Shown: positions 3,888 through 38,666 of the stretch, one piece after another
How positions within the stretch are numbered: position 1 is the stretch's first letter
Layout: every line of letters starts with the position of its first letter
Assembly (NCBI GenBank): GCA_903952145.1
Contig: CAJBES010000307.1
Coordinates: 1-38,975 of the forward strand
Reading direction: 5' to 3'
From: an uncultured Opitutaceae bacterium
Lineage (GTDB): Bacteria > Verrucomicrobiota > Verrucomicrobiia > Opitutales > Opitutaceae
DNA length: 38,975 nucleotides
Notes under the pieces: model-generated
Databases searched by the model: none
Told to the model about the DNA's origin: nothing
The model's input: only the letters and a program-made list of their open reading frames with translations
Program-made: the position numbers and the translations under genes

Positions 3888-4047
3888 GGTGAATAGAAAG
3901 GTCTGGTGTTGGTAGGCAATGATGCGCGGCGGACTTTCACGGCGCCCGCTTGCGTGTGTTCATTGCGGCGGCCATGAGGCAGTCTCTGGTGTTACGATTC
4001 ACGGTCAGGGTGGCGGGCCCGGAACGGCTGGGTTCAACCATGGCGGG

Positions 4048-5181
4048 TCAATCCAGCCAGGTCTGCCAGAACTTTTGCCGGCCCTTCTCGCTGACGCGCT
4101 CTCGGAGTTCCGCCCGCGTGCCGCCCCGGTCGAGCAGGCGCTTGACCTCCTTGCCTGCCCGGATGAACGCTTTGACCTTCTCGATGTGCGGCGGCTCGCA
4201 CATGGTTCCTTCCAGAACCGTGAACACCTTGCAGGCACCGTCGGCCGCCGCTTGAAACACGAAATCCTCCACGTCGCGGCAGGTCATGCCGCGGTAATGG
4301 AAACTCACTAGCCGCCAGCCAAACGGCACGCGGCACTCCCGCGCAATGACCTGCGGGTTGATCTGCCGGGAGACCGAGGGATCGTAATACCAGAGCCCGA
4401 TTGTTTCCAAATGCCGGAGCTGGGTCGGACGCAGGTCCTCCACGTGGGCCAGGCGCCTGCCGCTCGTCACCCCGTTGAAATATTGATCCCAGTAAGGGAG
4501 GACAAATGTCTCCCACAGACGCGGTGGAATCATGGATGCGATGTCGTCGCAGATCATGGCGCTGTCCGGCTTGATCACCGGCCGGCCGCTGATTGAGCAG
4601 TGCCACCGGTAGAAATCCAGCACGCTCGTCGTCAGCAATCCTAGGAACTCCTGGGTCTTCTCCGGCTCGTCAAGGACATCCAAAAAGAACGCATCCCCCC
4701 GGAATTCGTAGGCGGTCGTCACCGGTCCCTCCCAACTGTATGCATACCACACCTCCTCGCCCGGAAAGGCTTTCTGCATCTGCGCGAGGAAATTGAGGTA
4801 GAACTGGGCCCGAGGTGCCCGGCCAAAATCAACCGGCTGCTTCAATGCCGCGATGGCCCGGTCGAGCGAATCCTGGAAAACATGTTCGACCGCCACCTCG
4901 CCGCCCTCGGGGAAGTAAAGCTCGGCCCCCAAGCTGTTGGGATGGCCGTAGCTAATGGGCGGCGTGGTCGGTCCCGCCACGCCCACGTCCGGCCCGAAAA
5001 GCTCCTCCACCCGTTGCCGGCCTGTTCGGTAGACTTCGATGCAAGCCTCCGGTTCGAGGAAGAAATCCCGGGTCGGCACCTCCGCCATCTTCAGGTAGGC
5101 CAGATACGAACCCGTGACGCTCCACTCAAAAGCAGTCGCCGTATCCCTCCTCAGGGCTTCGTAATCGGGGCGGAGGTGCAT
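4048..5181 (-). CDS. Uroporphyrinogen decarboxylase-fold (URO-D/MtaA-like) protein
   Basis: A 377-residue protein of the URO-D superfamily, which contains true HemE enzymes and corrinoid-linked methyltransferases such as MtaA. Recognisable segments are YSWEGPVTTAYEFRGDAFF (~145-163), the SAMICDDIASMIPP stretch after the central helix, and the WETFVLPYWDQYF helix. It lacks the usual HemE N-terminal substrate motifs and stands beside sugar-type enzymes, so haem synthesis is unlikely. Family members in similar PVC-group clusters are annotated only as URO-D domain proteins. The gene starts 12 bp after the oxidoreductase and is probably co-transcribed with it. Methyl transfer or demethylation of a methylated sugar is a guess. 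Confidence 0.8.
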   Translation of the reverse strand: MHLRPDYEALRRDTATAFEWSVTGSYLAYLKMAEVPTRDFFLEPEACIEVYRTGRQRVEELFGPDVGVAGPTTPPISYGHPNSLGAELYFPEGGEVAVEHVFQDSLDRAIAALKQPVDFGRAPRAQFYLNFLAQMQKAFPGEEVWYAYSWEGPVTTAYEFRGDAFFLDVLDEPEKTQEFLGLLTTSVLDFYRWHCSISGRPVIKPDSAMICDDIASMIPPRLWETFVLPYWDQYFNGVTSGRRLAHVEDLRPTQLRHLETIGLWYYDPSVSRQINPQVIARECRVPFGWRLVSFHYRGMTCRDVEDFVFQAAADGACKVFTVLEGTMCEPPHIEKVKAFIRAGKEVKRLLDRGGTRAELRERVSEKGRQKFWQTWLD

Positions 5182-9980: not shown

Positions 9981-10925
9981 CTAGTGGTGAAACCCGTCGA
10001 CTGGAAAGCGCGTGCGGTCGGAAAGATTGACTGCAGCGGCCATGGTTGCGATTTCGAGCAATGGGCTCACCTCTTTGAGGCGAAGGACGACCTCGGCGAT
10101 GATCGCCGGAAGTGAATTGGCGGGCAGAGGCAGTAGGGCGAGCACGGGCGCACTGGGGCGCGGTGGGGCGCGGTCCGGCTGGCATGCGACAGAGCGCACG
10201 AACTTCGCCGTGTGCAGCAGCGCGGCAAGGCAGGTGTGGTCAGCGGTGGCCGGGTCATCTTGGCCGCGCATGGCCGCGCAGACCTCGGCCGGGAATCCCC
10301 AGTGGCACAGCAAGGCTGCGCCGGTGTCGGCTTGGGTGAACCCCAACTGGGCTTGCTCACTGGCGCTGGCGGAGTCGGTAATCTCATCGCGGCTCAACCT
10401 CAGCCCGCGCCGACTGCGCAAGGCCCACTCGTCGATCGCGACCATGCCGATGCCGTGCAGCAAACCAATCGTGTAGGCGGTCGAGGCATCCTGACCGGTG
10501 CGTTGCGCGAGAACCTCCGCGGCGAAGGCCCCGGCAAGCGACTGCAACCAAAAATCATCAGCCTCGATGCCATAGACGGCGAGCGGCCGGATTAGAACCT
10601 GCGCGGCGGCCGCGTAAGAGGCCAACTCATATACTTGGTTGAAGCCAACCCGGCCCACGGCTTCTTCGACCGTGGAGCACGATGCTCCGCTGCTGTAGTA
10701 GGCACTGTTGCCGACGCGCACCACTTGCGCGGCCATGCCCGGGTCGAGCCGGATTAGTTCCACGATCTCCTCGATCGACGAGTTACAGTCCGTGAGCAGG
10801 CGCTTGATCCGGGGCAGCACCTGGGGGGCCGAGGGCAGGTGCTTCACCGCCTGCACAATATCGCTAGGCGCCAGGGGTCTGGTGGCGACCCTAGGGCAAC
10901 CGGCGGATTTGGGGTCATTTCCCAT
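9981..10925 (-). CDS. HDOD domain regulatory protein
   Basis: The start is placed at the ATG at 10925 (MGNDPKSAGC), giving 314 residues. The frame is open to 10991, but that extension lies inside the upstream gene. The HDOD domain spans ~35-240: LPSAPQVLPRIKRLLTD, the PGMAAQVVRVGNSAYYSS segment that is the family hallmark, the VEEAVGRVGFNQVYELA helix, and GLLHGIGMVAIDEW, where the catalytic His-Asp of true HD hydrolases is absent. HDOD proteins are non-catalytic signalling modules often tied to motility, chemotaxis or c-di-GMP control. The start overlaps the 3' end of the upstream membrane-protein gene by 11 bp, so the two are translationally linked. The C-terminal 70 residues are Pro/Leu-rich and unassigned. 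Confidence 0.8.
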   Translation of the reverse strand: MGNDPKSAGCPRVATRPLAPSDIVQAVKHLPSAPQVLPRIKRLLTDCNSSIEEIVELIRLDPGMAAQVVRVGNSAYYSSGASCSTVEEAVGRVGFNQVYELASYAAAAQVLIRPLAVYGIEADDFWLQSLAGAFAAEVLAQRTGQDASTAYTIGLLHGIGMVAIDEWALRSRRGLRLSRDEITDSASASEQAQLGFTQADTGAALLCHWGFPAEVCAAMRGQDDPATADHTCLAALLHTAKFVRSVACQPDRAPPRPSAPVLALLPLPANSLPAIIAEVVLRLKEVSPLLEIATMAAAVNLSDRTRFPVDGFHH

Positions 10926-11418
10926 TGCCGGGTTGCCTTGGCTCACAGCGGTCAGCGACAGGTGGCGACCGGCGGAAGCGCGGGAGCACAAACCTGATCA
11001 CCGCGAACGTGAAAGGGTTGATTGGATCCAGAAAGAAGCAGACCAGGCCGATCGCCGGCCCGATCGTGGACTGACCGTGGGAGGTCAGGCCCGCGATCCA
11101 CGCGGTCAACGCCGGGAGCGGGAGGGTGGAGGATTTGCGGCTCACCCAGTAGACATTTAGCAGGGTGAAGAGCACGGCGGGCAGGAAAGCGGCGACCGCC
11201 AGATAGCTCTCCGGCTGCCCTTGATTCGCATGGATGGAGGTCACCAGGATTTTCGAGACGGAGTAGCCCCAGAAGAGCCAGATGGCGATGAACACGAACT
11301 GCATCGCGAGTTTGCCGCCGCGGGAAGGAGCCTTTCTGGGCTGAGCCGATGAGCCCGGAACAGCACCACCGCTGGAGGTGACTGGCGGGCGACTCGGAGC
11401 GGGATCGGGGTCGGGCAT
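10915..11418 (-). CDS. Small membrane protein of unknown function
   Basis: The frame is open much further upstream, but from the ATG at 11418 (MPDPDPAPSRPP) the 167-residue product looks like a real protein, whereas the extension to 11856 is low-quality. A Pro/Ser-rich N-terminal ~45 residues precedes the first hydrophobic helix (MQFVFIAIWLFWGYSV), a second (YLAVAAFLPAVLFTLLNVYW), and a third region (IGPAIGLVCFFLDPINPFTF, then AVIRFVLPRF). The order suggests an inner-membrane protein with a cytoplasmic N terminus. I do not recognise a family. It overlaps the downstream HDOD gene by 11 bp, so a membrane-linked role beside that regulator is possible. The start is uncertain. Confidence 0.5.
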   Translation of the reverse strand: MPDPDPAPSRPPVTSSGGAVPGSSAQPRKAPSRGGKLAMQFVFIAIWLFWGYSVSKILVTSIHANQGQPESYLAVAAFLPAVLFTLLNVYWVSRKSSTLPLPALTAWIAGLTSHGQSTIGPAIGLVCFFLDPINPFTFAVIRFVLPRFRRSPPVADRCEPRQPGNGK

Positions 11419-14184: not shown

Positions 14185-15051
14185 TCAGCCTCCGCGGTGG
14201 GCCGGCTGGATGCTCTCAATTTTGCCCATCCCCTCCAAGTAATCTTCGCGCGCTTTTGTGAGGACCGCCGCCTGCATCTGCAGGCGATCCAGCAGGGCCG
14301 GATCAAAATCCGCAATGACTATGGACAAGGGCAGGGTTTCGATGATCAAAAACTCGGCAAGGTAAATGATCAGGGCGAGGTAATTCACCTCGCCACCTTT
14401 AACCGGTGAGTGGTGGCGGCCGATGCCCAGCGCGAGTGCCTCCGTAAAATTCCAGTTCCGACAAACCCTCATCCCGACCTCGCATTCGTCGAGCCCACAA
14501 CCGTCGAATCGATTTTCCCCAGCCAATCCCTGCGCGGGAAAATTGCCCAGCGCAGCCGTCCATTGTTCGGATGCCACCGCGATCACGAGCCGGCCAATGT
14601 TGTGCAGGAGACCACCCAGCCTGCAGACTTCCTGATCCTTGATCGAGGCACCGGCAGCCTTTGCGATGCAGTAGGCCGCGCCGGCCACCTTGTTCGAATG
14701 GGTGAAATAGTCGGCAAGATTTTGGAGGCACGCGAAATGCGAGCGCACAATCCTGTTTGTATAGGCCACGAGTACAAAATCCGACAGGTTGACCATCCCG
14801 AGGGTCATCACAGCTTCACTGATGGTATCCACCCGCCCACCCCGGCCATAAAATGAAGAGTTGGCCAATCTGATGAGATCGGCGCAGAGTCCGGCATCAT
14901 GTTCGAGCGGCGAGATAAGGTCGGCAAAATCGCAATTGGGATCTGCCAGGATTTGCCGCAGTTTAAGGGCGGTATCAGGCAGCGAGGGTAAAAATCTGAT
15001 TTGCTCTGAAACCTTGCGGGAAAATTCTTCGGACGTGAGCGATGTCGGCAT
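14185..15051 (-). CDS. HDOD domain regulatory protein
   Basis: A 288-residue protein almost entirely made of an HDOD domain. LPSLPDTALKLRQILADPNC (~21-40) matches the family opening, DAGLCADLIRLANSSFYG the core helix, ISEAVMTLGMVNLSDFVL the central helix, and RLGGLLHNIGRLVI the position where HD enzymes carry His-Asp (Asn-Ile here, so no metal site). The C terminus has GIGRHHSPVKGGEVN, a retained His-His. The family acts as a protein-interaction module in motility, chemotaxis and c-di-GMP signalling. GGAGG lies 7 nt upstream of the ATG, one of the clearest ribosome sites in the window. It follows fliR on the same strand after 358 bp, so co-transcription with the flagellar operon is possible but not shown. 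Confidence 0.85.
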   Translation of the reverse strand: MPTSLTSEEFSRKVSEQIRFLPSLPDTALKLRQILADPNCDFADLISPLEHDAGLCADLIRLANSSFYGRGGRVDTISEAVMTLGMVNLSDFVLVAYTNRIVRSHFACLQNLADYFTHSNKVAGAAYCIAKAAGASIKDQEVCRLGGLLHNIGRLVIAVASEQWTAALGNFPAQGLAGENRFDGCGLDECEVGMRVCRNWNFTEALALGIGRHHSPVKGGEVNYLALIIYLAEFLIIETLPLSIVIADFDPALLDRLQMQAAVLTKAREDYLEGMGKIESIQPAHRGG

Positions 15052-17751: not shown

Positions 17752-18009
17752 TCAGGCCCCGAGTTTCACGCTGCCAACGAGTTCAGTGATCTTGATGCCG
17801 AAGTTGTCCTCGACCACCACGACCTCGCCATAGGCCACAAGCTTCTCATTGACGTAGAGACCGACCGGGTCGCTGGCGTGTTGGTTAAGTTGCACGACAG
17901 AACCTGGCGCAAGCTCAAGCACTTCGCGCATCGGCAACTGGCAGGAGCCGAGTTGCACAGTGACCTTCACCATGACGTCGAGCACGATATCAAGGGTATT
18001 ATCGTCCAT
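17752..18009 (-). CDS. fliN: Flagellar motor switch protein FliN
   Basis: The start is placed at the ATG at 18009 (MDDNTLDIVLDVMVKV), overlapping the 3' end of fliM by 11 bp; the frame extends upstream, but that part lies inside fliM and is not FliN-like. The 85-residue product consists of little more than the SpoA (SPOA/FliMN_C) fold, with PMREVLELAPGSVVQLNQ and GLYVNEKLVAYGEVVVVEDN clearly visible. Typical FliN proteins have an extra N-terminal region of 40-60 residues, so this is a minimal form. It forms the lower C ring with FliM and binds FliH. Confidence 0.93.
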   Translation of the reverse strand: MDDNTLDIVLDVMVKVTVQLGSCQLPMREVLELAPGSVVQLNQHASDPVGLYVNEKLVAYGEVVVVEDNFGIKITELVGSVKLGA

Positions 18010-19048
18010 CTGATTTGGTATGGTTGGCGTCCCCCGGGGGAAGTTTGCAGACAAGGGTGACCGCGACCCGATTGGTATCGAGGCCGACGGTGCCCCGGAA
18101 TTTCGGCGCACCGTTGAGCAGCACGGCGGTCTCCTGCAGATGCGAAGCGGGCATTTCCAGCACGTCGCCCACGCGCAAGCTGTGGATCTCGCGCAAGCTC
18201 AGCTCGAAGGCCTGCCATTCGGCACGGACGGGAACCGTGATGCGATCATAGGCAGCCTGCCAAGTGGGATGTTTCTCAATCTTGGGAATAGAGGCATCCT
18301 TATGACGGCGCGCTTGCATTTTCTTCACCAGCGGCTCGATGGTGTAATACGGCACCCCGATCTGGATCTGTTCAGAGCAGTCACCGAAATTCACTTCAAG
18401 GGTTAACGCGAGCATGACGGCGTCCTTCGGCGATGTCTGCACGAACCGGCCGTTATTCTCATGGCCGAGGATAAGCCCGCGCAGTTCCTGCTCGCTCTTC
18501 CACTGACTGCACCACTCCTCCAAGATGATCAGGATGACGTCCTCCAACAGCGAAACCTCGATTTCAGTCAGGTAGCGCTCCACCTTTATGGAATGGCCCC
18601 GACCGCCGAGGAGGCGGTCGGCAATGGTGAGCGCAAGGCGGGGATTGATGTCAAGAATGCCGACCCCAACCAAGGGTTCGGCCTTGAAGAGACACAGGTG
18701 CGTGGGACTGGGCAGCGCCTCGGTAAACTTGCTGTAGCTGGCCGTGGTCAGCTTCGCCATCTTAATGCTGAACTCCATGCGCAGGAACAGTGACAATCGC
18801 GCACTGAGGTAGCGGATGAAATCCTCGTGGAGGATACGGAGCCGGCGCAACTCGAACTCGGACAGGAAAACCGGATTGCGAAAATCATAGGCCTCCACCT
18901 TGAGACTGGTGCCAAGCGCGGTCCGGTGGCCGTTCGCCCGCAGGAAGTGCTGCTTGGGTGCCGCCACCGCCGTCTCCTGTGCCAACAGCCGGTCGATCTC
19001 GGATTGGTCGAGCGAATCGGAAACAGGTTCTGGGGAATGGTCGGCCAT
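17999..19048 (-). CDS. fliM: Flagellar motor switch protein FliM
   Basis: 349 residues. The N-terminal LDQSEIDRLLAQ (13-24) is the CheY-P docking motif. A middle CheC-like domain follows, including FRNPVFLSEFELRRLRILHEDF, TASYSKFTEALPSPTHLCLF, GVGILDINPRLALTIADRLLGG and YLTEIEVSLLEDVILIILEEW. The C-terminal SpoA domain contains LSLREIHSLRVGDVLEM. FliM links FliG to FliN in the C ring and switches rotation direction when CheY-P binds. The gene lies 11 bp after fliL and overlaps fliN. Confidence 0.96.
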   Translation of the reverse strand: MADHSPEPVSDSLDQSEIDRLLAQETAVAAPKQHFLRANGHRTALGTSLKVEAYDFRNPVFLSEFELRRLRILHEDFIRYLSARLSLFLRMEFSIKMAKLTTASYSKFTEALPSPTHLCLFKAEPLVGVGILDINPRLALTIADRLLGGRGHSIKVERYLTEIEVSLLEDVILIILEEWCSQWKSEQELRGLILGHENNGRFVQTSPKDAVMLALTLEVNFGDCSEQIQIGVPYYTIEPLVKKMQARRHKDASIPKIEKHPTWQAAYDRITVPVRAEWQAFELSLREIHSLRVGDVLEMPASHLQETAVLLNGAPKFRGTVGLDTNRVAVTLVCKLPPGDANHTKSDGR

Positions 19049-29815: not shown

Positions 29816-30649
29816 ATGAGGGAAAACGAATACGAATACATCTGCGGTATCGTTTACGAGCACAGCCGCATCAATCTTGGACCGGACAAACGTGAGTTAG
29901 TGTCCGCGCGTCTCGGTAAACGCCTGCGCGCCACCAAACTGGCAACCGTCGGCGAATACTGTCAGTTTCTCAAGACCCAGCACAATGGCGAGGAACTCGC
30001 GCACCTTATCGACGCCATCTCAACCAACCACACCTTTTTCTTCCGCGAGATGGCGCACTTTGATTTTCTTTGCACGACGGTCCTGCCGGAGATGAAAGCC
30101 CGTGCCAAAGCGGAACGCTGGTCGCAGTTTAATGTCTGGAGTGCAGCCTGTTCCTCGGGGGAGGAACCCTACTCCATCGCCATGCTGCTCGACGAACAAC
30201 TCGCGACTTCCTGGCCGTGGCACATCGCGTGCACCGATATTTCCAACCGCATTCTCGACAAGGCCCGCGGCGGGATTTACCGGGAGGAAACCGTCGGCAA
30301 GCTCACGCCCGACCGTATCCATCGGTATTTCCAACGTGGCTACGGACCGCAGGCGGGCAACTACAGGATTAAATCTTCACTCCAGTCCGGCCTGACCTTT
30401 CAGCATCTGAATCTGCTTGAGGGCGAACCGCCGTTTCGGGAGCTTTTCCACGTAATTTTCTGTCGCAACGTCATGATCTACTTTGACCGGAAGACACAGG
30501 AGGAACTGGTGGCAAAGCTCGCCCGCCTCCTCATCCCTGGCGGTTATCTCTTTGTGGGCCACTCGGAAAGCCTCACCGGCGTCCCCCACTCGCTCAAGTC
30601 CGTCCGGCCGGCCATCTACCGGCGGCCCCTCGCCTGTGGATCGTCATGA
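29816..30649 (+). CDS. cheR: Chemotaxis protein methyltransferase CheR
   Basis: 277 residues with the usual two domains. The N-terminal helical domain contains IVYEHSRINLGPDKRELVSA and ISTNHTFFFRE (68-78), the receptor-binding hinge. The SAM-binding Rossmann domain has WSAACSSGEEPYSIAML (108-124), ACTDISNRIL and FHVIFCRNVMIYFD. CheR methylates receptor glutamates for adaptation. There is no C-terminal TPR or pentapeptide-binding extension. The ATGA at the 3' end overlaps cheB by 4 bp. The start has no clear Shine-Dalgarno sequence. Confidence 0.95.
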   Translation: MRENEYEYICGIVYEHSRINLGPDKRELVSARLGKRLRATKLATVGEYCQFLKTQHNGEELAHLIDAISTNHTFFFREMAHFDFLCTTVLPEMKARAKAERWSQFNVWSAACSSGEEPYSIAMLLDEQLATSWPWHIACTDISNRILDKARGGIYREETVGKLTPDRIHRYFQRGYGPQAGNYRIKSSLQSGLTFQHLNLLEGEPPFRELFHVIFCRNVMIYFDRKTQEELVAKLARLLIPGGYLFVGHSESLTGVPHSLKSVRPAIYRRPLACGSS

Positions 30650-31746
30650 CTACTCCCAAAATCCGCGTCCTCATCATCGATGACTCCGCCATAGTCCGGC
30701 GGCTGGTCGCTGAGGCCCTGAACTCCGATCCTGCCATCGAGGTCGTGGGCACCGCCGTCGATCCCTACGCGGCCCGTGATAAGATCAATGAACTCAAACC
30801 CGATGTGCTCACCTTGGACATTGAGATGCCCCGCATGGATGGACTGACCTTTCTGGAGATTCTCATGCAGCGCCGGCCCATGCCGGTGATTGTCATGAGT
30901 TCGCTCACCCAGCTTGGCTCGGAGCATGCGCTCGAGGCGCTTAGGCTTGGGGCCTTCGATGTTTTGGGCAAACCCCACGGCGCCTACTCATTCGGTGACC
31001 TCGGCGACCAATTGATCACCAAGATCAAGGCTGCCGCCAGCACCCGCCTGCGCGCCCTGCCGCCACCGGCTAAGGCCGTGCCCCGGGTGCCCGTGCCCCG
31101 GGTGACTGTGCCGCCCGCAACGGTCCGTCCGTTCGATCCGCGTGCCATCATTTTACTTGGGGCCTCGACCGGCGGCACCGAGGCATTGCATGATGTCATC
31201 ACCCGACTGCCTCCGAACCTGCCGGGCATCGCCATCGTGCAGCATATTCCGCCGATGTTTTCCAAGGCCTTCGCCGACCGATTGCGCCACCTCAGTGCGC
31301 TCGATGTTCGCGAGGCCGTTGACGGGGACCGGCTGACGCCGGGTGTCGCCCTCATCGCCCCGGGTAATTTTCATCTTCTCCTCCAATGGGCCGGCACACA
31401 TTATCGAGCGCGCGTAACTGACGGACCGCAGATCTGGCACCAGCGACCCGCCGTGGACCTCCTCTTCAAGTCGGCTGCAGATTGCGGCGCGGCACCACAC
31501 GCCATCGCCGGCATCCTCACTGGCATGGGCAAGGACGGCGCCGAAGGCCTCCTGCGCTTGCGCGAAAAGGGGGCCAACACTTTTGCCCAGGACGAGGCCA
31601 GCTCAATCGTCTACGGCATGCCGCGCGCGGCCTGGGAAAATTCCGCCGCCCAGCGCCAAATTCCTCTTGGCCTAATCGCCGATTTCATCATCCGCCAGTT
31701 TGTCTCTCCCACTGTGTTCCACCCAGGCTCCGCCTCCGCCCCATGA
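30646..31746 (+). CDS. cheB: Chemotaxis protein-glutamate methylesterase CheB
   Basis: 366 residues. The receiver domain (1-125) has acidic pocket Asp12-Asp13, phosphoacceptor Asp58 in LTLDIEMPRMDGL and the LGKPHG lysine. A Pro/Val-rich linker (~138-165, with a duplicated VPRV unit) connects to the esterase domain with catalytic Ser174 (GASTGG), His200 (IVQHIPPMF) and Asp297 (GMGKDGAEG). These correspond to the Ser-His-Asp triad of enteric CheB. It removes methyl groups from receptors and may deamidate glutamine. It overlaps cheR and the next gene by 4 bp each. Confidence 0.96.
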   Translation: MTTPKIRVLIIDDSAIVRRLVAEALNSDPAIEVVGTAVDPYAARDKINELKPDVLTLDIEMPRMDGLTFLEILMQRRPMPVIVMSSLTQLGSEHALEALRLGAFDVLGKPHGAYSFGDLGDQLITKIKAAASTRLRALPPPAKAVPRVPVPRVTVPPATVRPFDPRAIILLGASTGGTEALHDVITRLPPNLPGIAIVQHIPPMFSKAFADRLRHLSALDVREAVDGDRLTPGVALIAPGNFHLLLQWAGTHYRARVTDGPQIWHQRPAVDLLFKSAADCGAAPHAIAGILTGMGKDGAEGLLRLREKGANTFAQDEASSIVYGMPRAAWENSAAQRQIPLGLIADFIIRQFVSPTVFHPGSASAP

Positions 31747-33017
31747 ACACACCCGCCATCCCGGCTGATCATCCGGTCATATTGATCGTCGACGACGAAC
31801 CCGTCGCCCTGACCGCCCTCAGGCTCACACTGGAGCGCGAGCACTACCACGTTGTCGCCGTCGCAAGCCCGCTCAAGGCCCTGTCCATTCTCGCCGAACG
31901 TGATTTCGCCGTCATTATCTCCGACCAACGCATGCCGGAGATGCTGGGGCTGGATTTCCTCATCGAATGCAAACGCCTCCGACCGCATTCTTCGCGCATC
32001 CTCATCACCGCGGTGCTTTCCCTGCCCACGCTTGTTGACTCGATCAACAAGGGTGAAATTTTCCGCTTCGTCGCCAAACCTTGGCTGCGCGAAGAACTCA
32101 CCGCTACAGTGCGCAATGCCATCCAGCGCCACGAGCTGATCGCACACAACACCACACTGCAGGCGGAAACAAACCGCCTGAACGACGAACTGCAGGCCGC
32201 CAACACCGCGCTTGAGGCCAAAGTGAACGACCTTGAACAAGAGCATCTGAAGCTCGACGGACTCAACAATGAGCTGGCAACCTCCTACGAACACTCCCTC
32301 GAACTCTGCCGCCGAATCCTAACCACCTTCGACCCCGTGCTCGGTGGCCAAGCCAAGATGCTGGTCGAGGTCTGTAGGCACATGTCCGAGACCGAGCATT
32401 TCAACGAGGACGAACGCCGCATTCTCCGCTCGGCTCCATTGTTATGCGACCTCGGCCTGATCGGCATTCCGCGCGAGCTGTTTCGCACGTTCCGCTCCCA
32501 CCCCGAGCGCCTGTCCGAGCGCGAGCGAGTCATGTTGCGCAATCATCCCGTTTTTTCGCAAACTCTCGCCACTTATGTCGATAGCCGGCCGGCCTTGGGC
32601 GAAACCATCCGTGCGCATCACGAGCGCTTCGACGGTCTTGGCTACCCCGACGGCCTCGCCGGGAATAGCATCCCCTGGACTGCGCGTTGCCTTGCTGTTG
32701 CGGTGGATTTTGTCGAATCCGACCTCCCGAAGCAGGGCACGCTCGCGGCCATCCTGGCAGGCTCCGGCCAGGCTTACGATCCCGAGGCGGTGCGACTTTT
32801 CCTTAAGGTCACACAACTCGCCCGACTGCCGCGACAAGTGCGCGAAATCATGCTTGAGGAACTCGAGGCCGGTATGGTGCTGGCCAGCGGCATCTACAGC
32901 CCGCACGGCCTGTTGCTCGTTGGCGAAGGCCAGACACTGGGAGCGCCGACGGTCGCAAAAATTCGCAGTCATAATCAAGTGACACCCATCCAACAGCGTC
33001 TGTTGGTATATTTGTGA
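31743..33017 (+). CDS. Response regulator with degenerate HD-GYP domain
   Basis: The start is at the ATG at 31743, overlapping the cheB stop (ATGA); 424 residues. The receiver (10-125) has DDE (17-19), phosphoacceptor Asp61 in IISDQRMPEM and the FVAKPW lysine. A coiled coil spans ~135-185. The HD domain keeps the overall HD-GYP order but is altered: the usual HDIGKIGIP is CDLGLIGIP (Cys235, Leu238), while NHP (His268), HHERFDGLGYPDG (His292-His293) and GYP remain. Loss of the HD histidine, a metal ligand, makes c-di-GMP phosphodiesterase activity doubtful, and a binding or output role is more likely. The C-terminal ~100 residues are unassigned. Similar RpfG-type proteins control motility and biofilm. 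Confidence 0.82.
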   Translation: MNTPAIPADHPVILIVDDEPVALTALRLTLEREHYHVVAVASPLKALSILAERDFAVIISDQRMPEMLGLDFLIECKRLRPHSSRILITAVLSLPTLVDSINKGEIFRFVAKPWLREELTATVRNAIQRHELIAHNTTLQAETNRLNDELQAANTALEAKVNDLEQEHLKLDGLNNELATSYEHSLELCRRILTTFDPVLGGQAKMLVEVCRHMSETEHFNEDERRILRSAPLLCDLGLIGIPRELFRTFRSHPERLSERERVMLRNHPVFSQTLATYVDSRPALGETIRAHHERFDGLGYPDGLAGNSIPWTARCLAVAVDFVESDLPKQGTLAAILAGSGQAYDPEAVRLFLKVTQLARLPRQVREIMLEELEAGMVLASGIYSPHGLLLVGEGQTLGAPTVAKIRSHNQVTPIQQRLLVYL

Positions 33018-33177
33018 GCTGGTAAACATAATTTTATCCGGAAATCGCTCAATTTCCCACCGGCTAGGTCGTTAGTCCATCAAGGCCCGGTGCGTCTGGC
33101 GCCCAGCCCACCATCTTCATGTCAGACCTCCTCACATTCTCACCGGCGGAACGCCCAGTGCAGCCCACTTTTTGACC

Positions 33178-33702
33178 ATGGCCGGAGCCCCGACCATCGC
33201 GGCACTTTTTACCCAGCGCATCATCATTGGCGTGGGGGACGTGGCCGTCTCCAATAATCAACAGGTGGTCCTCAGCACCTATGCCCTTGGGTCCTGCATC
33301 GGCGTCATCGCCTACGATCCCTTTACCAAGGTCGGCGGTATTCTGCATCTGATGCTGCCCGACTCGTCTATATCGCCCGACAAAGCCGCTCAACAACCCG
33401 CCATGTTCGCCAACACCGGCCTGCCCCTGCTCTTTCGCGCAATGATCGGCCTCAAAGCCGATCGCCACCGCATGAACGTGCTCGTCGCCGGTGGCGCCGG
33501 CATGCTCAGCGGGTCCGACCCGTTTAAAATCGGTGAGCGCAACACCGACGTCACCCTCCTCTTGCTGAAAAAAAACGGCATCAGAGTCAGCCACCAAGAA
33601 GTCGGCGGCACGATCAACCGCACCTTGCATCTTGAGATCAGCAGCGGCTGTGTCAGCCTCAAGACTCCCGTCGGCAGCAGCCAGTTTAACCTCGTCTCCT
33701 GA
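33178..33702 (+). CDS. cheD: Chemoreceptor glutamine deamidase CheD
   Basis: The start is at the ATG at 33178, giving 174 residues; a TTG two codons earlier is less likely. The CheD core is intact: GVGDVAVSNNQQVVLSTYALGSC, with Thr34, Cys40 and His57 (in GGILHLMLPDS). Their spacing (6 and 17) is the same as in Thermotoga CheD, where these residues catalyse deamidation. VLVAGGAGML and the IGERNTDVTLLLL segment follow. CheD deamidates receptor Gln and can bind CheC/CheX-type phosphatases; the cheX gene 1.3 kb downstream suits that. A 160-bp gap precedes it. Confidence 0.92.
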   Translation: MAGAPTIAALFTQRIIIGVGDVAVSNNQQVVLSTYALGSCIGVIAYDPFTKVGGILHLMLPDSSISPDKAAQQPAMFANTGLPLLFRAMIGLKADRHRMNVLVAGGAGMLSGSDPFKIGERNTDVTLLLLKKNGIRVSHQEVGGTINRTLHLEISSGCVSLKTPVGSSQFNLVS

Positions 33703-33829: not shown

Positions 33830-34000
33830 ATCTTCGGCACGTTTAGGTTAGACTTACGCCGTGGCGAATGGGGCCCTTGAATTGGGCGCGCAATCGCTTG
33901 TAGCCCGACTTCCGCAAATGGAGGCAATGGGCGGTAGAAGTGATTGATGGTGCGTGCAACGAGGCCAAAGGTCGCCACTACACACCGGACGCGGACTGCG

Positions 34001-34395
34001 GATCATGGGCGGTGGTTGCGACGGCAGCGTCAGCACGACGCGGTCGAGCAGGAGGGCTACGTCACGACCGAGCTCGGTGCGGCGCACGAGTAGCAGCTCG
34101 CGGCCGTCGGTGGTCGGCACGGCGACGTCAAGCAATTGGACGGTGGCAAGTTTTCCCAGGAACACCCGCGGCTTCAGGCCGGGGGCCAGACCGCGCAGTT
34201 GCCGGCACCGCGTGATCGACAGGCCATAGGCGTGAAACGCAACGAACAGGTGCGCCTCGAACCGCTCGGCCTTATGATGGAGGATGGGCCTCAGGCCGAG
34301 GTCACCATTGAGCGTGCGGACGCTTCCTCGACGTGGCAGAGTTGCATGTAGCAAGGCCAGATCAGTGCGGATCGTTGGCCAGCAGCTTCACGGTC
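34001..34395 (-). pseudogene. Decayed transposase, IS1634-like C-terminal piece
   Basis: Translation of the minus strand gives LIWPCYMQLCHVEEA, then after a one-base loss near 34325, FRTLNGDLGLRPILHHKAER, FEAHLFVAFHAYGL and finally VVLTLPSQPPPM. The Y-x-Q-L-x-x-V-E-E-A-F-R-T-L-K-x-D-L-x-x-R-P-I pattern is the C-terminal end of IS1634-family DDE transposases, including the final catalytic Glu region. A further shift near 34370 separates KLLANDP from LIWP. The N terminus of this protein is missing. It lies between cheD and cheX. Confidence 0.6.
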
Positions 34396-34423
34396 GCAGC
34401 GGTGCCCGCCCAGTTGGCTCACG

Positions 34424-34800
34424 GACCCAAACGCCAGGCTCAGGTCGATGAGCGTCGAGTCGACGGCGTAAACCGGCGCATCCAGATCAAGCGCCCCCGG
34501 TTCATCGGCGTAAAGGCGGCGTGCGCGCGCGATCAGCTTGCGGGCGAGCGCCGCAAACAAGCGTCACTCCCGCTCCTCGTTGGCTCGGGCCAACGGGCTG
34601 CGCGTGACACGCGTGCGAAGGCCCAAGTGGTAAGCGACCGCCGGCTGCGTGCTCAGACAAGCCTCGATGTCGCGCAGGCTCTCGCGAAAAGTCATCTGCG
34701 CGAAGGCCAGCGCGAGAAAGTGATCCCACGCCGGAAACTGCCGTCGTGGCACCTTTTGGTTTGCGCAACTTGCAGTGCTTCGAGTGCAACCCTGCTTTCA
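34424..34800 (-). pseudogene. Decayed transposase, IS4-like N-terminal piece
   Basis: Minus-strand frames give FPAWDHFLALAFAQMTFRES then LRDIEACL and VTRSPLARANEERE, stopping at 34564. After a frameshift near 34562, FAALARKLIARARRLYADEP and APVYAVDSTLIDLSLA follow. These match the N-terminal domain and first catalytic Asp (VDSTLIDL) of IS4-family transposases with a DUF4372-type N terminus. The rest of the IS4 catalytic core is missing and the sequence joins the IS1634-like remnant. No clear terminal inverted repeats or target duplication were seen. Confidence 0.6.
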
Positions 34801-34986: not shown

Positions 34987-35523
34987 ATGTCCGCCACAGC
35001 CGCCATCAACGAACAGTTGCTTCGCGAGAATATCACACGTGCCATAAACGATGTGTTCAGCACCATGCTTGGCCGTGAGCCTACATTCATGGGCTGCACC
35101 AATATCCTGCCGGATGACGGAATGTCGCCCCCGGCCTCCGGGCCAGCCAGCGGCAACACCACTTTCGTCGTAGGAACCGTCGGTTTTGTTGGTGATATCA
35201 ACGGCCTGATTTACCTATACCTTGACGAGACTCTCGCCCGGCACAGCACCTGCCATCTGCTTGGCATGAACGAGGCGGAACTTGAACAGGCCGGCGACGA
35301 GGTGATTAATGACGCCATCGGCGAGATCACTAACATGACCGTCGGCAGTTTCAAGAGCGGCCTCTGCGATGCCGGCTACATGTGCAAACTCACGATCCCC
35401 TCCATTCTGCGGGGCAGCAATTTCAGGATCGAGCCCACCACCGCAACCACCCGCTACCTCTATCATTATGAGTCTGCCGGGCATAAGGTAACCGCCGATA
35501 TTCTCATCCAGACCGATGAATGA
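34987..35523 (+). CDS. cheX: Chemotaxis phosphatase CheX
   Basis: The start is at the ATG at 34987 (MSATAAINEQLLREN); upstream in-frame sequence is not protein-like. 178 residues. The CheX/CheC-family core is seen in GTVGFVGDINGLIYLYLDE, the helix EAELEQAGDEVINDAIGEIT, and catalytic Glu113 and Asn116 in GEITNMTVG (the E-x-x-N motif that attacks CheY-P). The tail is LTIPSILRGSNFRI. CheX dephosphorylates CheY. The ATGA at the 3' end overlaps the next gene by 4 bp, coupling it to a receiver-STAS protein that it may act on. The nearest partner upstream, cheD, lies 1.3 kb away across a mobile-element scar. Confidence 0.9.
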   Translation: MSATAAINEQLLRENITRAINDVFSTMLGREPTFMGCTNILPDDGMSPPASGPASGNTTFVVGTVGFVGDINGLIYLYLDETLARHSTCHLLGMNEAELEQAGDEVINDAIGEITNMTVGSFKSGLCDAGYMCKLTIPSILRGSNFRIEPTTATTRYLYHYESAGHKVTADILIQTDE

Positions 35524-36701
35524 TTTTCAACACCACCGTCATGCGCTACAAAGTTCTCACCGTTGATGATTCTAGGACCGTCCGCATCATCGTGCGGAAG
35601 GCCTTCAAGTCCTATGATTGCGAAATTCTTGAGGCCGGCAACGGTGTCGAGGGTTTGGCGATCGCCGCCAAGGATTCGCCTGACCTCATCTTGCTCGACG
35701 TCACTATGCCCGTGATGGACGGCGTGGAGATGCTGACGAAGATCAAGTCCGACCCGCAGCTCAAGGGTATCCCCGTCATCATGCTCACCGCCGAGGGTGG
35801 TCGGGACAACGTGCTCAAGATCGCTAAGATTGGCGTGCGTGATTATCTGGTGAAACCATTCAAGGAAGAAACGCTCATCGAAAAGGCGGGCCGCGTTATT
35901 GACCTCAAACCCCTCTCCGATCAGCCCACAAAGGCCAAATCGATCTTCGATCCGGCCGACATCCTCGCCGTCGAAGACAAGCCTGCCATCATCCAGCAGA
36001 TTCAGGAAGGCTTGAAGCATATGCCCTGGAAGATCCACGGCGTCAGCACGCAGGGCGAAGCCTTGGATTACTGCACGAAAACACCGCCAGACCTCGTGCT
36101 GATGAGCTTGTCGTTACCCGAGGAGTCGGCTTTCAACCTGTTCCGCATCATGCGGACCAACATAAAGACAAAATATACACCAATTTTTGCCCTCGCCGTC
36201 AAAACAGAGACCGGGCAGCAGCAGCAAGCGCAGACCGTGGGTTTCTCAGCCCTTATCACCAAGCCGATCGATTTGGGCGAACTTGAAGCCAAGATGTGCA
36301 AATCGATGAACCTCGATACTTCGCGACGCTATTTTTCAATTGAGCCCGGTTTCCTCATGATGCGCTTGCCGGAAAACTGCTCCCCGGCGGTGCTGGCCGA
36401 GGTCGCCAATTACCTGAAACCTAAATTTTCCGAGGCTGTTGACGCCGGCCACACTCGCATGATTATCGATATTCACGAGCTAAAGACCCTCCACATGGGT
36501 GTGATCAAGCTGCTTTTTCAAGCCATGCAAACCTGCCGCGAATTGACCCTGCAGTTCGCACTGGTGGGGAATGCCCAAATCGTCAGTGAGTGCAAGGGCT
36601 TCGAAGATACGCGCAACTGGCTGTTCTGCGATTCTATCGATGAAGCGAAGTCCACTCTTGGGAAACTCGGCGCGGCCGTCCCGCAAATGGCCTCGGCCTG
36701 A
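35520..36701 (+). CDS. Receiver-receiver-STAS fusion protein
   Basis: 393 residues from the ATG at 35520 overlapping cheX; an internal ATG at 35541 is an alternative. Domain 1 (8-130) is a complete CheY-like receiver: VDDS pocket, phosphoacceptor Asp60 in LILLDVTMPVMDG, Thr90 and Lys112 (VKPF). Domain 2 (~145-262) keeps the receiver outline (ILAVEDKPAIIQ, LITKPIDLGEL), but Ser196 replaces the phosphoacceptor Asp in DLVLMSLSLP. Domain 3 (~278-380) is STAS-like, with MIIDIHELKTLHMG where anti-anti-sigma factors carry the phosphorylated Ser in IDSSG; Ser is missing. A phosphorylation-controlled partner switch is plausible, with CheX as the likely phosphatase. I know no named protein with this exact architecture. 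Confidence 0.8.
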   Translation: MIFNTTVMRYKVLTVDDSRTVRIIVRKAFKSYDCEILEAGNGVEGLAIAAKDSPDLILLDVTMPVMDGVEMLTKIKSDPQLKGIPVIMLTAEGGRDNVLKIAKIGVRDYLVKPFKEETLIEKAGRVIDLKPLSDQPTKAKSIFDPADILAVEDKPAIIQQIQEGLKHMPWKIHGVSTQGEALDYCTKTPPDLVLMSLSLPEESAFNLFRIMRTNIKTKYTPIFALAVKTETGQQQQAQTVGFSALITKPIDLGELEAKMCKSMNLDTSRRYFSIEPGFLMMRLPENCSPAVLAEVANYLKPKFSEAVDAGHTRMIIDIHELKTLHMGVIKLLFQAMQTCRELTLQFALVGNAQIVSECKGFEDTRNWLFCDSIDEAKSTLGKLGAAVPQMASA

Positions 36702-37007: not shown

Positions 37008-37190
37008 TGCGCCATCTCAGTTGCGACATGCCAAGACGGGCCGTTTTCCCGCCTGTGAAGTAGCTCCGGCGTCATCTCAATTTTCTGCCAATGTAAATCT
37101 CATCGTGCGTCGCGCACCACCAGAGCGCCGGTTTTTATTGTCTCGCACTGGGGGATGTCTAGCAGATCGTTTTGCATTTCTGATACCGGC

Positions 37191-38666
<1,476 letters not shown>

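Follow-up and report, generated by a model that had tools for sequence, protein, structure and literature searches.

Genes at the locus

The window, meaning the whole 38,975-nucleotide stretch of DNA from an uncultured Opitutaceae bacterium that was analysed, encodes chemotaxis and flagellar proteins, among them a CheY-like protein fused to two further domains. The features discussed below are as follows.

17999..19048, minus strand: fliM, whose N-terminus reads as a CheY-binding motif (LDQSEIDRLLA); the proposed target
29816..33702, plus strand: cheR, cheB, a gene for a receiver-HD protein and cheD, the remaining chemotaxis cluster (Pfam)
34987..35523, plus strand: cheX, a predicted CheY-P phosphatase of 178 aa with an intact catalytic DxxxExxN motif (D109, E113, N116; Pfam and alignment)
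35520-36701, plus strand: the CheY-pseudoreceiver-STAS open reading frame as reported, 393 codons
35541..36701, plus strand: the same gene from its likely true start, Met8, 17 nt past the cheX stop
35541..35909, plus strand: REC1, an intact CheY-like receiver (D16, D17, D60, T90, Y109, K112; alignments), predicted orthologue of a stand-alone cheX-linked CheY
35946..36317, plus strand: REC2, a pseudo-receiver with Ser196 (codon 36105-36107) in place of the phosphoacceptor Asp (alignments)
36324..36665, plus strand: STAS domain with Met326 (codon 36495-36497) at the phospho-Ser position (Pfam; fold match to TM1442/RsbS), found only fused
37155..38666, plus strand: NtrC-type sigma-54 response regulator (Pfam)

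The open reading frame at 35520-36701 encodes an intact receiver, a second receiver in which Ser replaces the phosphoacceptor Asp, and a STAS domain lacking the phosphorylatable Ser. An earlier note on this DNA had proposed this composition, and it was borne out by Pfam, where Response_reg matched two stretches (E=1.4e-42), by an alignment of 81 fusion sequences and by fold matching. The same architecture was present on 80 further contigs and in 24 sampled genomes, and fusion through an assembly or frameshift error was rejected. A monomer AlphaFold model of the whole chain had a low pTM of 0.60 and therefore gives no interdomain packing for the protein. Literature searches for a REC-REC-STAS protein or a verrucomicrobial CheX/CheY system found no description, in keeping with the statement in the earlier note that no system of this form was known.

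That note had also placed the start of the gene over the stop of cheX and suggested translational coupling. The close linkage of the two genes is real, but the start codon of the overlap is not conserved, and the overlap was therefore discarded as a feature of the family. Instead, 79 of the 81 aligned sequences keep Met8 (window 35541), and in relatives this start lies mostly 9-40 nt past the cheX stop, often in the cheX frame. The ATGA overlap is thus probably not the real start of the fusion gene, as judged from the alignment.

CheX and gene neighbourhood

The upstream gene product matched Pfam CheX (E=7.5e-21), and its D109xxxE113xxN116 motif was invariant in 80/80 sequences. A CheX match lay within about 200 nt upstream of the fusion gene in all 24 sampled genomes that encode the fusion. 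Because of this class-wide adjacency, action of CheX on REC1, the resetting role that had been predicted for it, is well supported by gene order.

In relatives the common order is fliD, fliS, the NtrC-type regulator directly upstream of cheX (in most loci), cheX and the fusion gene; at about ten loci cheA follows downstream. The window differs in that the NtrC-type gene is downstream, the cheR, cheB, receiver-HD and cheD genes are upstream, and a large flagellar cluster is on the other strand. In the window's genome a single CheA was detected, at C50. The earlier note had called for a survey of neighbours for an anti-sigma or GTPase partner; the annotated neighbours in the window and the neighbour clusters that recur at the 80 loci were examined. 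They are flagellar and chemotaxis genes, and none was identified as encoding a sigma factor, a stressosome GTPase, a SpoIIE phosphatase or an anti-sigma kinase.

Between cheD and cheX lies a gap of 1.3 kb in which positions 33900-34800 (minus strand) resemble a decayed insertion element; the segment 34654-34713 shares 85% identity with a transposase annotated as IS4 family, and the short open reading frames in the gap matched no Pfam family. This remnant may account for the rearranged order, with the NtrC-type gene downstream rather than upstream. Beside it is a 46-bp sequence (34745-34790) with nine further genomic copies at 83-89% identity.

Two HDOD-domain proteins (9981-10991 and 14185-15051, both minus strand) adjoin the flagellar cluster in the window. 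HDOD is also found within the che operon of locus L099, where an HDOD-CheX protein (3952-4680, minus strand) directly follows the stand-alone CheY, and a similar-sized CheX-matching protein is in the equivalent place in L098 (4737-5468, minus strand). The HDOD-CheX protein is a second, differently built CheX.

REC1 and stand-alone CheY

The receiver residues of CheY, namely the acidic pair D16 and D17, D60, T90 and K112, are all conserved in REC1, and 79/81 aligned sequences retain the phospho-Asp D60. Conservation of this domain is 0.82. In related families (G062, G099) a stand-alone CheY directly follows cheX, as in the G099 operon CheD-HDOD-CheB-CheX-CheY-HDOD/CheX-CheA-CheW. These stand-alone proteins scored 193-202 bits with a REC1 profile, on par with fused REC1s. 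When the G062 CheY was searched against the genome of the window, REC1 was the best match (70% identity, 187 bits), followed by a protein at 39% and 72 bits. Fused REC1s and cheX-linked CheYs formed one supported clade (98/91) in a tree whose outgroup was two CheY sequences. Stand-alone CheYs were interspersed among fused REC1s in this tree, which does not settle the direction and count of fusions or losses. On these sequence comparisons, REC1 and the stand-alone CheY encoded after cheX in the che operons of related families are orthologues. The window's genome also encodes other small receivers, which could act at the motor.

The textbook CheY is a single-domain protein. The fusion protein carries two further conserved domains and is therefore described here as a CheY variant and not as a canonical CheY.

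REC2 and STAS domains

REC2 retains an acidic pair (E152/D153) and K248, and its phosphoacceptor position is S196 in 80 of the 81 sequences and Asn in the other. The term phosphorelay output, used in the earlier note, is unsupported because the usual site of this second receiver cannot be phosphorylated. Conservation of REC2 is highest in the pseudo-active-site loops (0.85-0.89 versus a mean of 0.68), which suggests that a contact surface has been maintained there. The pocket includes invariant K228 and K248.

The Pfam STAS match in the fusion protein (residues 291-352, E=3.5e-4) was just below the gathering score. The family was matched by 20 of 23 relatives, with a best value of 7.6e-7, and this support from family matches settles the weak score. 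An AlphaFold2 model of the STAS domain alone had a mean pLDDT of 89, and comparison with solved structures upheld the fold: TM1442 (1vc1) was matched at E=9.8e-5 with TM 0.71/0.80, and all 24 structure matches below 1e-3 were STAS proteins or STAS-bearing SLC26 transporters. The nearest solved structures were TM1442, RsbS, SpoIIAA and other STAS domains. A chance or false STAS call was rejected from the family profile together with the fold match.

The position of SpoIIAA Ser58 is Met326 in 77/81 aligned sequences. Fifteen additional full-length sequences of greater divergence, also from the class, had Met, Ile, Val or Leu at this site and never Ser or Thr, and the REC2 site in the same proteins was Ser or Asn and never Asp. 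The substitutions that had seemed odd in a single sequence are thus conserved and shared across the family. Of the three domains of the fusion, STAS is conserved least (0.54), and its former Ser loop reaches 0.49, evidence against partner switching through Ser. In 141 sampled genomes of the class, a profile of this STAS family recovered fused copies only, one per genome, and no free-standing version.

The window's genome (G000) has a separate, more classical partner switch on contig C211. This module (L097, 4233-6730) encodes a 706-aa protein joining an RsbW-like ATPase to a SpoIIE phosphatase and then a stand-alone receiver, with a STAS match nearby (C211:6139-6438).

Distribution of the fusion and its association with FliM

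A scan of genome contigs, which detects close relatives only, yielded 80 loci at 57-86% identity. Almost all carry the title Verrucomicrobia or Opitutia, and all match over the full length except for a few truncated ones. The full-length fusion was present in 24 of the 141 sampled genomes of the class; FliM was found in 34 and CheA in 41. All 24 fusion genomes had both FliM and CheA, and the fusion was present in 0 of the 107 genomes lacking FliM. The association of fusion with FliM had a Fisher probability of 1.7e-19, a value that ignores relatedness among genomes that are not phylogenetically independent. Outside the class, no full-length fusion was found among 289 genomes of the phylum (E<=1e-60), and a plasmid tblastn search gave only receiver proteins, diguanylate cyclases among them, at less than 60% identity. 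This distribution indicates that the fusion architecture is old and conserved within the class.

CheY docks on an N-terminal peptide of FliM, which is LSQxEIDxLL in well-studied bacteria. We inspected the FliM N-termini in all 34 FliM-encoding genomes of the class sample. A motif of this type was present in 24/24 genomes with the fusion versus 0/10 without it, for example LDQSEIDRLLA in the window, LSQSEVENLLA and MNQSDIDQLVA. The probability of such a perfect split is 1 in C(34,10), or about 8e-9, which overstates independence because the genomes are related. One member of the same family as the window (G054) encodes FliM but is without CheA, CheX, the fusion and the FliM motif. Another genome, G047, encodes FliM twice, and the full motif is found in just one of the two proteins.

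The CheY-binding motif is absent from FliM of G062, G099 and G104 (L149, L150, L161). Despite the motif-less FliM, two of these genomes, G062 and G099, encode CheA together with a stand-alone CheY linked to cheX. Since the stand-alone CheYs of the REC1 clade occur in genomes with motif-less FliM, the extra domains are unnecessary for CheY function in those relatives.

Proposed mechanism and alternative explanations

We consider it likely that the fusion protein is a motor-switching CheY that is reset by CheX, in which REC2 is a PleD-like adaptor and STAS a docking or oligomerisation module. The REC1, CheX and FliM part of this explanation is well supported by conservation and gene association, and the roles given to REC2 and STAS are proposed by analogy. 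CheA would phosphorylate Asp60 of REC1, as expected from the family, and phosphorylated REC1 would bind the N-terminal peptide of FliM and switch the motor, consistent with the covariation of the FliM motif. The neighbouring CheX, with its adjacency and intact catalytic residues, would then strip the phosphoryl group from REC1. By analogy to PleD, REC2 may act as an adaptor packing against REC1, such that phosphorylation shifts the contacts between the two, within or between molecules, and alters how far the FliM-binding face is exposed. STAS would not be a Ser-phosphorylated switch and may instead be a constitutive module for protein docking or oligomerisation, for example on CheA, as in rhizobial CheS, or on the motor. 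Together, REC2 and STAS probably govern dimerisation or docking. A more specific and more tentative idea, which we think somewhat less probable than its opposite, is that the protein is a lineage-wide three-domain regulator in which REC2 and the non-phosphorylatable STAS gate binding of CheY to FliM via phosphorylation-controlled dimerisation or docking on CheA or the motor. If so, allosteric control would be built into the output CheY of a chemotaxis switch.

The main rival to this motor-switching explanation is that the fusion serves as a phosphate sink or kinase tuner, with REC1 draining phosphoryl groups from CheA, STAS docking on CheA and another CheY driving the motor. CheS, a STAS-only chemotaxis protein, offers a parallel, as it binds CheA and enhances the sink CheY1; with Sinorhizobium meliloti CheS, CheY1 binds CheA 100-fold better (PMC12654446, PMC4214558). 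However, REC1 is the one clear CheY orthologue in the window's genome, the FliM motif tracks the fusion gene perfectly in the sample, and built-in sinks tend to replace a phosphatase and not to accompany one, with 93% of genomes that have a single CheA bearing a CheY-like domain being without phosphatases (PMC10782961). A sink therefore seems unlikely to us. More doubtful still is a purely passive role, in which REC2 and STAS would tether CheY to the chemoreceptor array or the flagellar pole and exert no allostery. The low conservation of STAS relative to REC1 (0.54 vs 0.82) would fit such a role, but conservation of the REC2 pseudo-active-site pocket goes beyond the needs of a tether.

The earlier note had taken another view, that the chemotaxis-type receiver controls a STAS partner switch; phosphorylated REC1 would then act through STAS as an antagonist of an anti-sigma factor. 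The STAS fold is nearest to those of TM1442, RsbS and SpoIIAA, and SpoIIE/RsbW-type modules are encoded elsewhere in the window's genome (C211). We nevertheless regard this view as very improbable, given that the phospho-Ser site is never Ser or Thr in divergent members and lies in a poorly conserved loop, that no partner-switch genes were identified among the examined neighbours, that the STAS domain was found in the fusion only, and that presence of the fusion tracks FliM, CheA and the FliM motif. Partner-switch kinases were rejected as discriminating partners, with matches to the RsbW-type ATPase family (HATPase_c_2) in 133/141 genomes being uninformative.

Comparison with known systems

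Motile members of the whole class appear to use a three-domain CheY, long kept and with its own phosphatase adjoining. It provides a clean test case for the contribution of non-catalytic pseudo-receiver and STAS modules to motor control, and in a phylum that has received little study the chemotaxis proteins gain testable assignments.

The CheY and CheX pair of Thermotoga and Borrelia has in common with the fusion system the intact receiver residues, a CheX with ExxN, the che/flagellar neighbourhood and the CheY-binding motif in FliM, but here the receiver bears an attached pseudo-receiver and STAS. PleD (REC, pseudo-REC adaptor, GGDEF) likewise has an active receiver followed by one without a phosphoacceptor, and was the top solved-structure match for the REC1-REC2 pair both by sequence and by fold; the fusion differs in having STAS in place of the C-terminal GGDEF diguanylate cyclase and in its ties to CheX and FliM. 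The anti-sigma antagonist and stressosome proteins SpoIIAA, RsbS and TM1442 share the STAS fold, whereas the fusion is without the phosphorylatable Ser and had no partner-switch neighbours identified. CheS of Sinorhizobium and Agrobacterium, which is not known to act in sigma control, has the same STAS domain type in chemotaxis and appears to be the most relevant precedent for the STAS domain of the fusion. It differs as a free STAS protein acting on CheA/CheY1, and the likeness is one of domain type only; the fusion protein represents a further case, besides rhizobial CheS, of STAS in chemotaxis.
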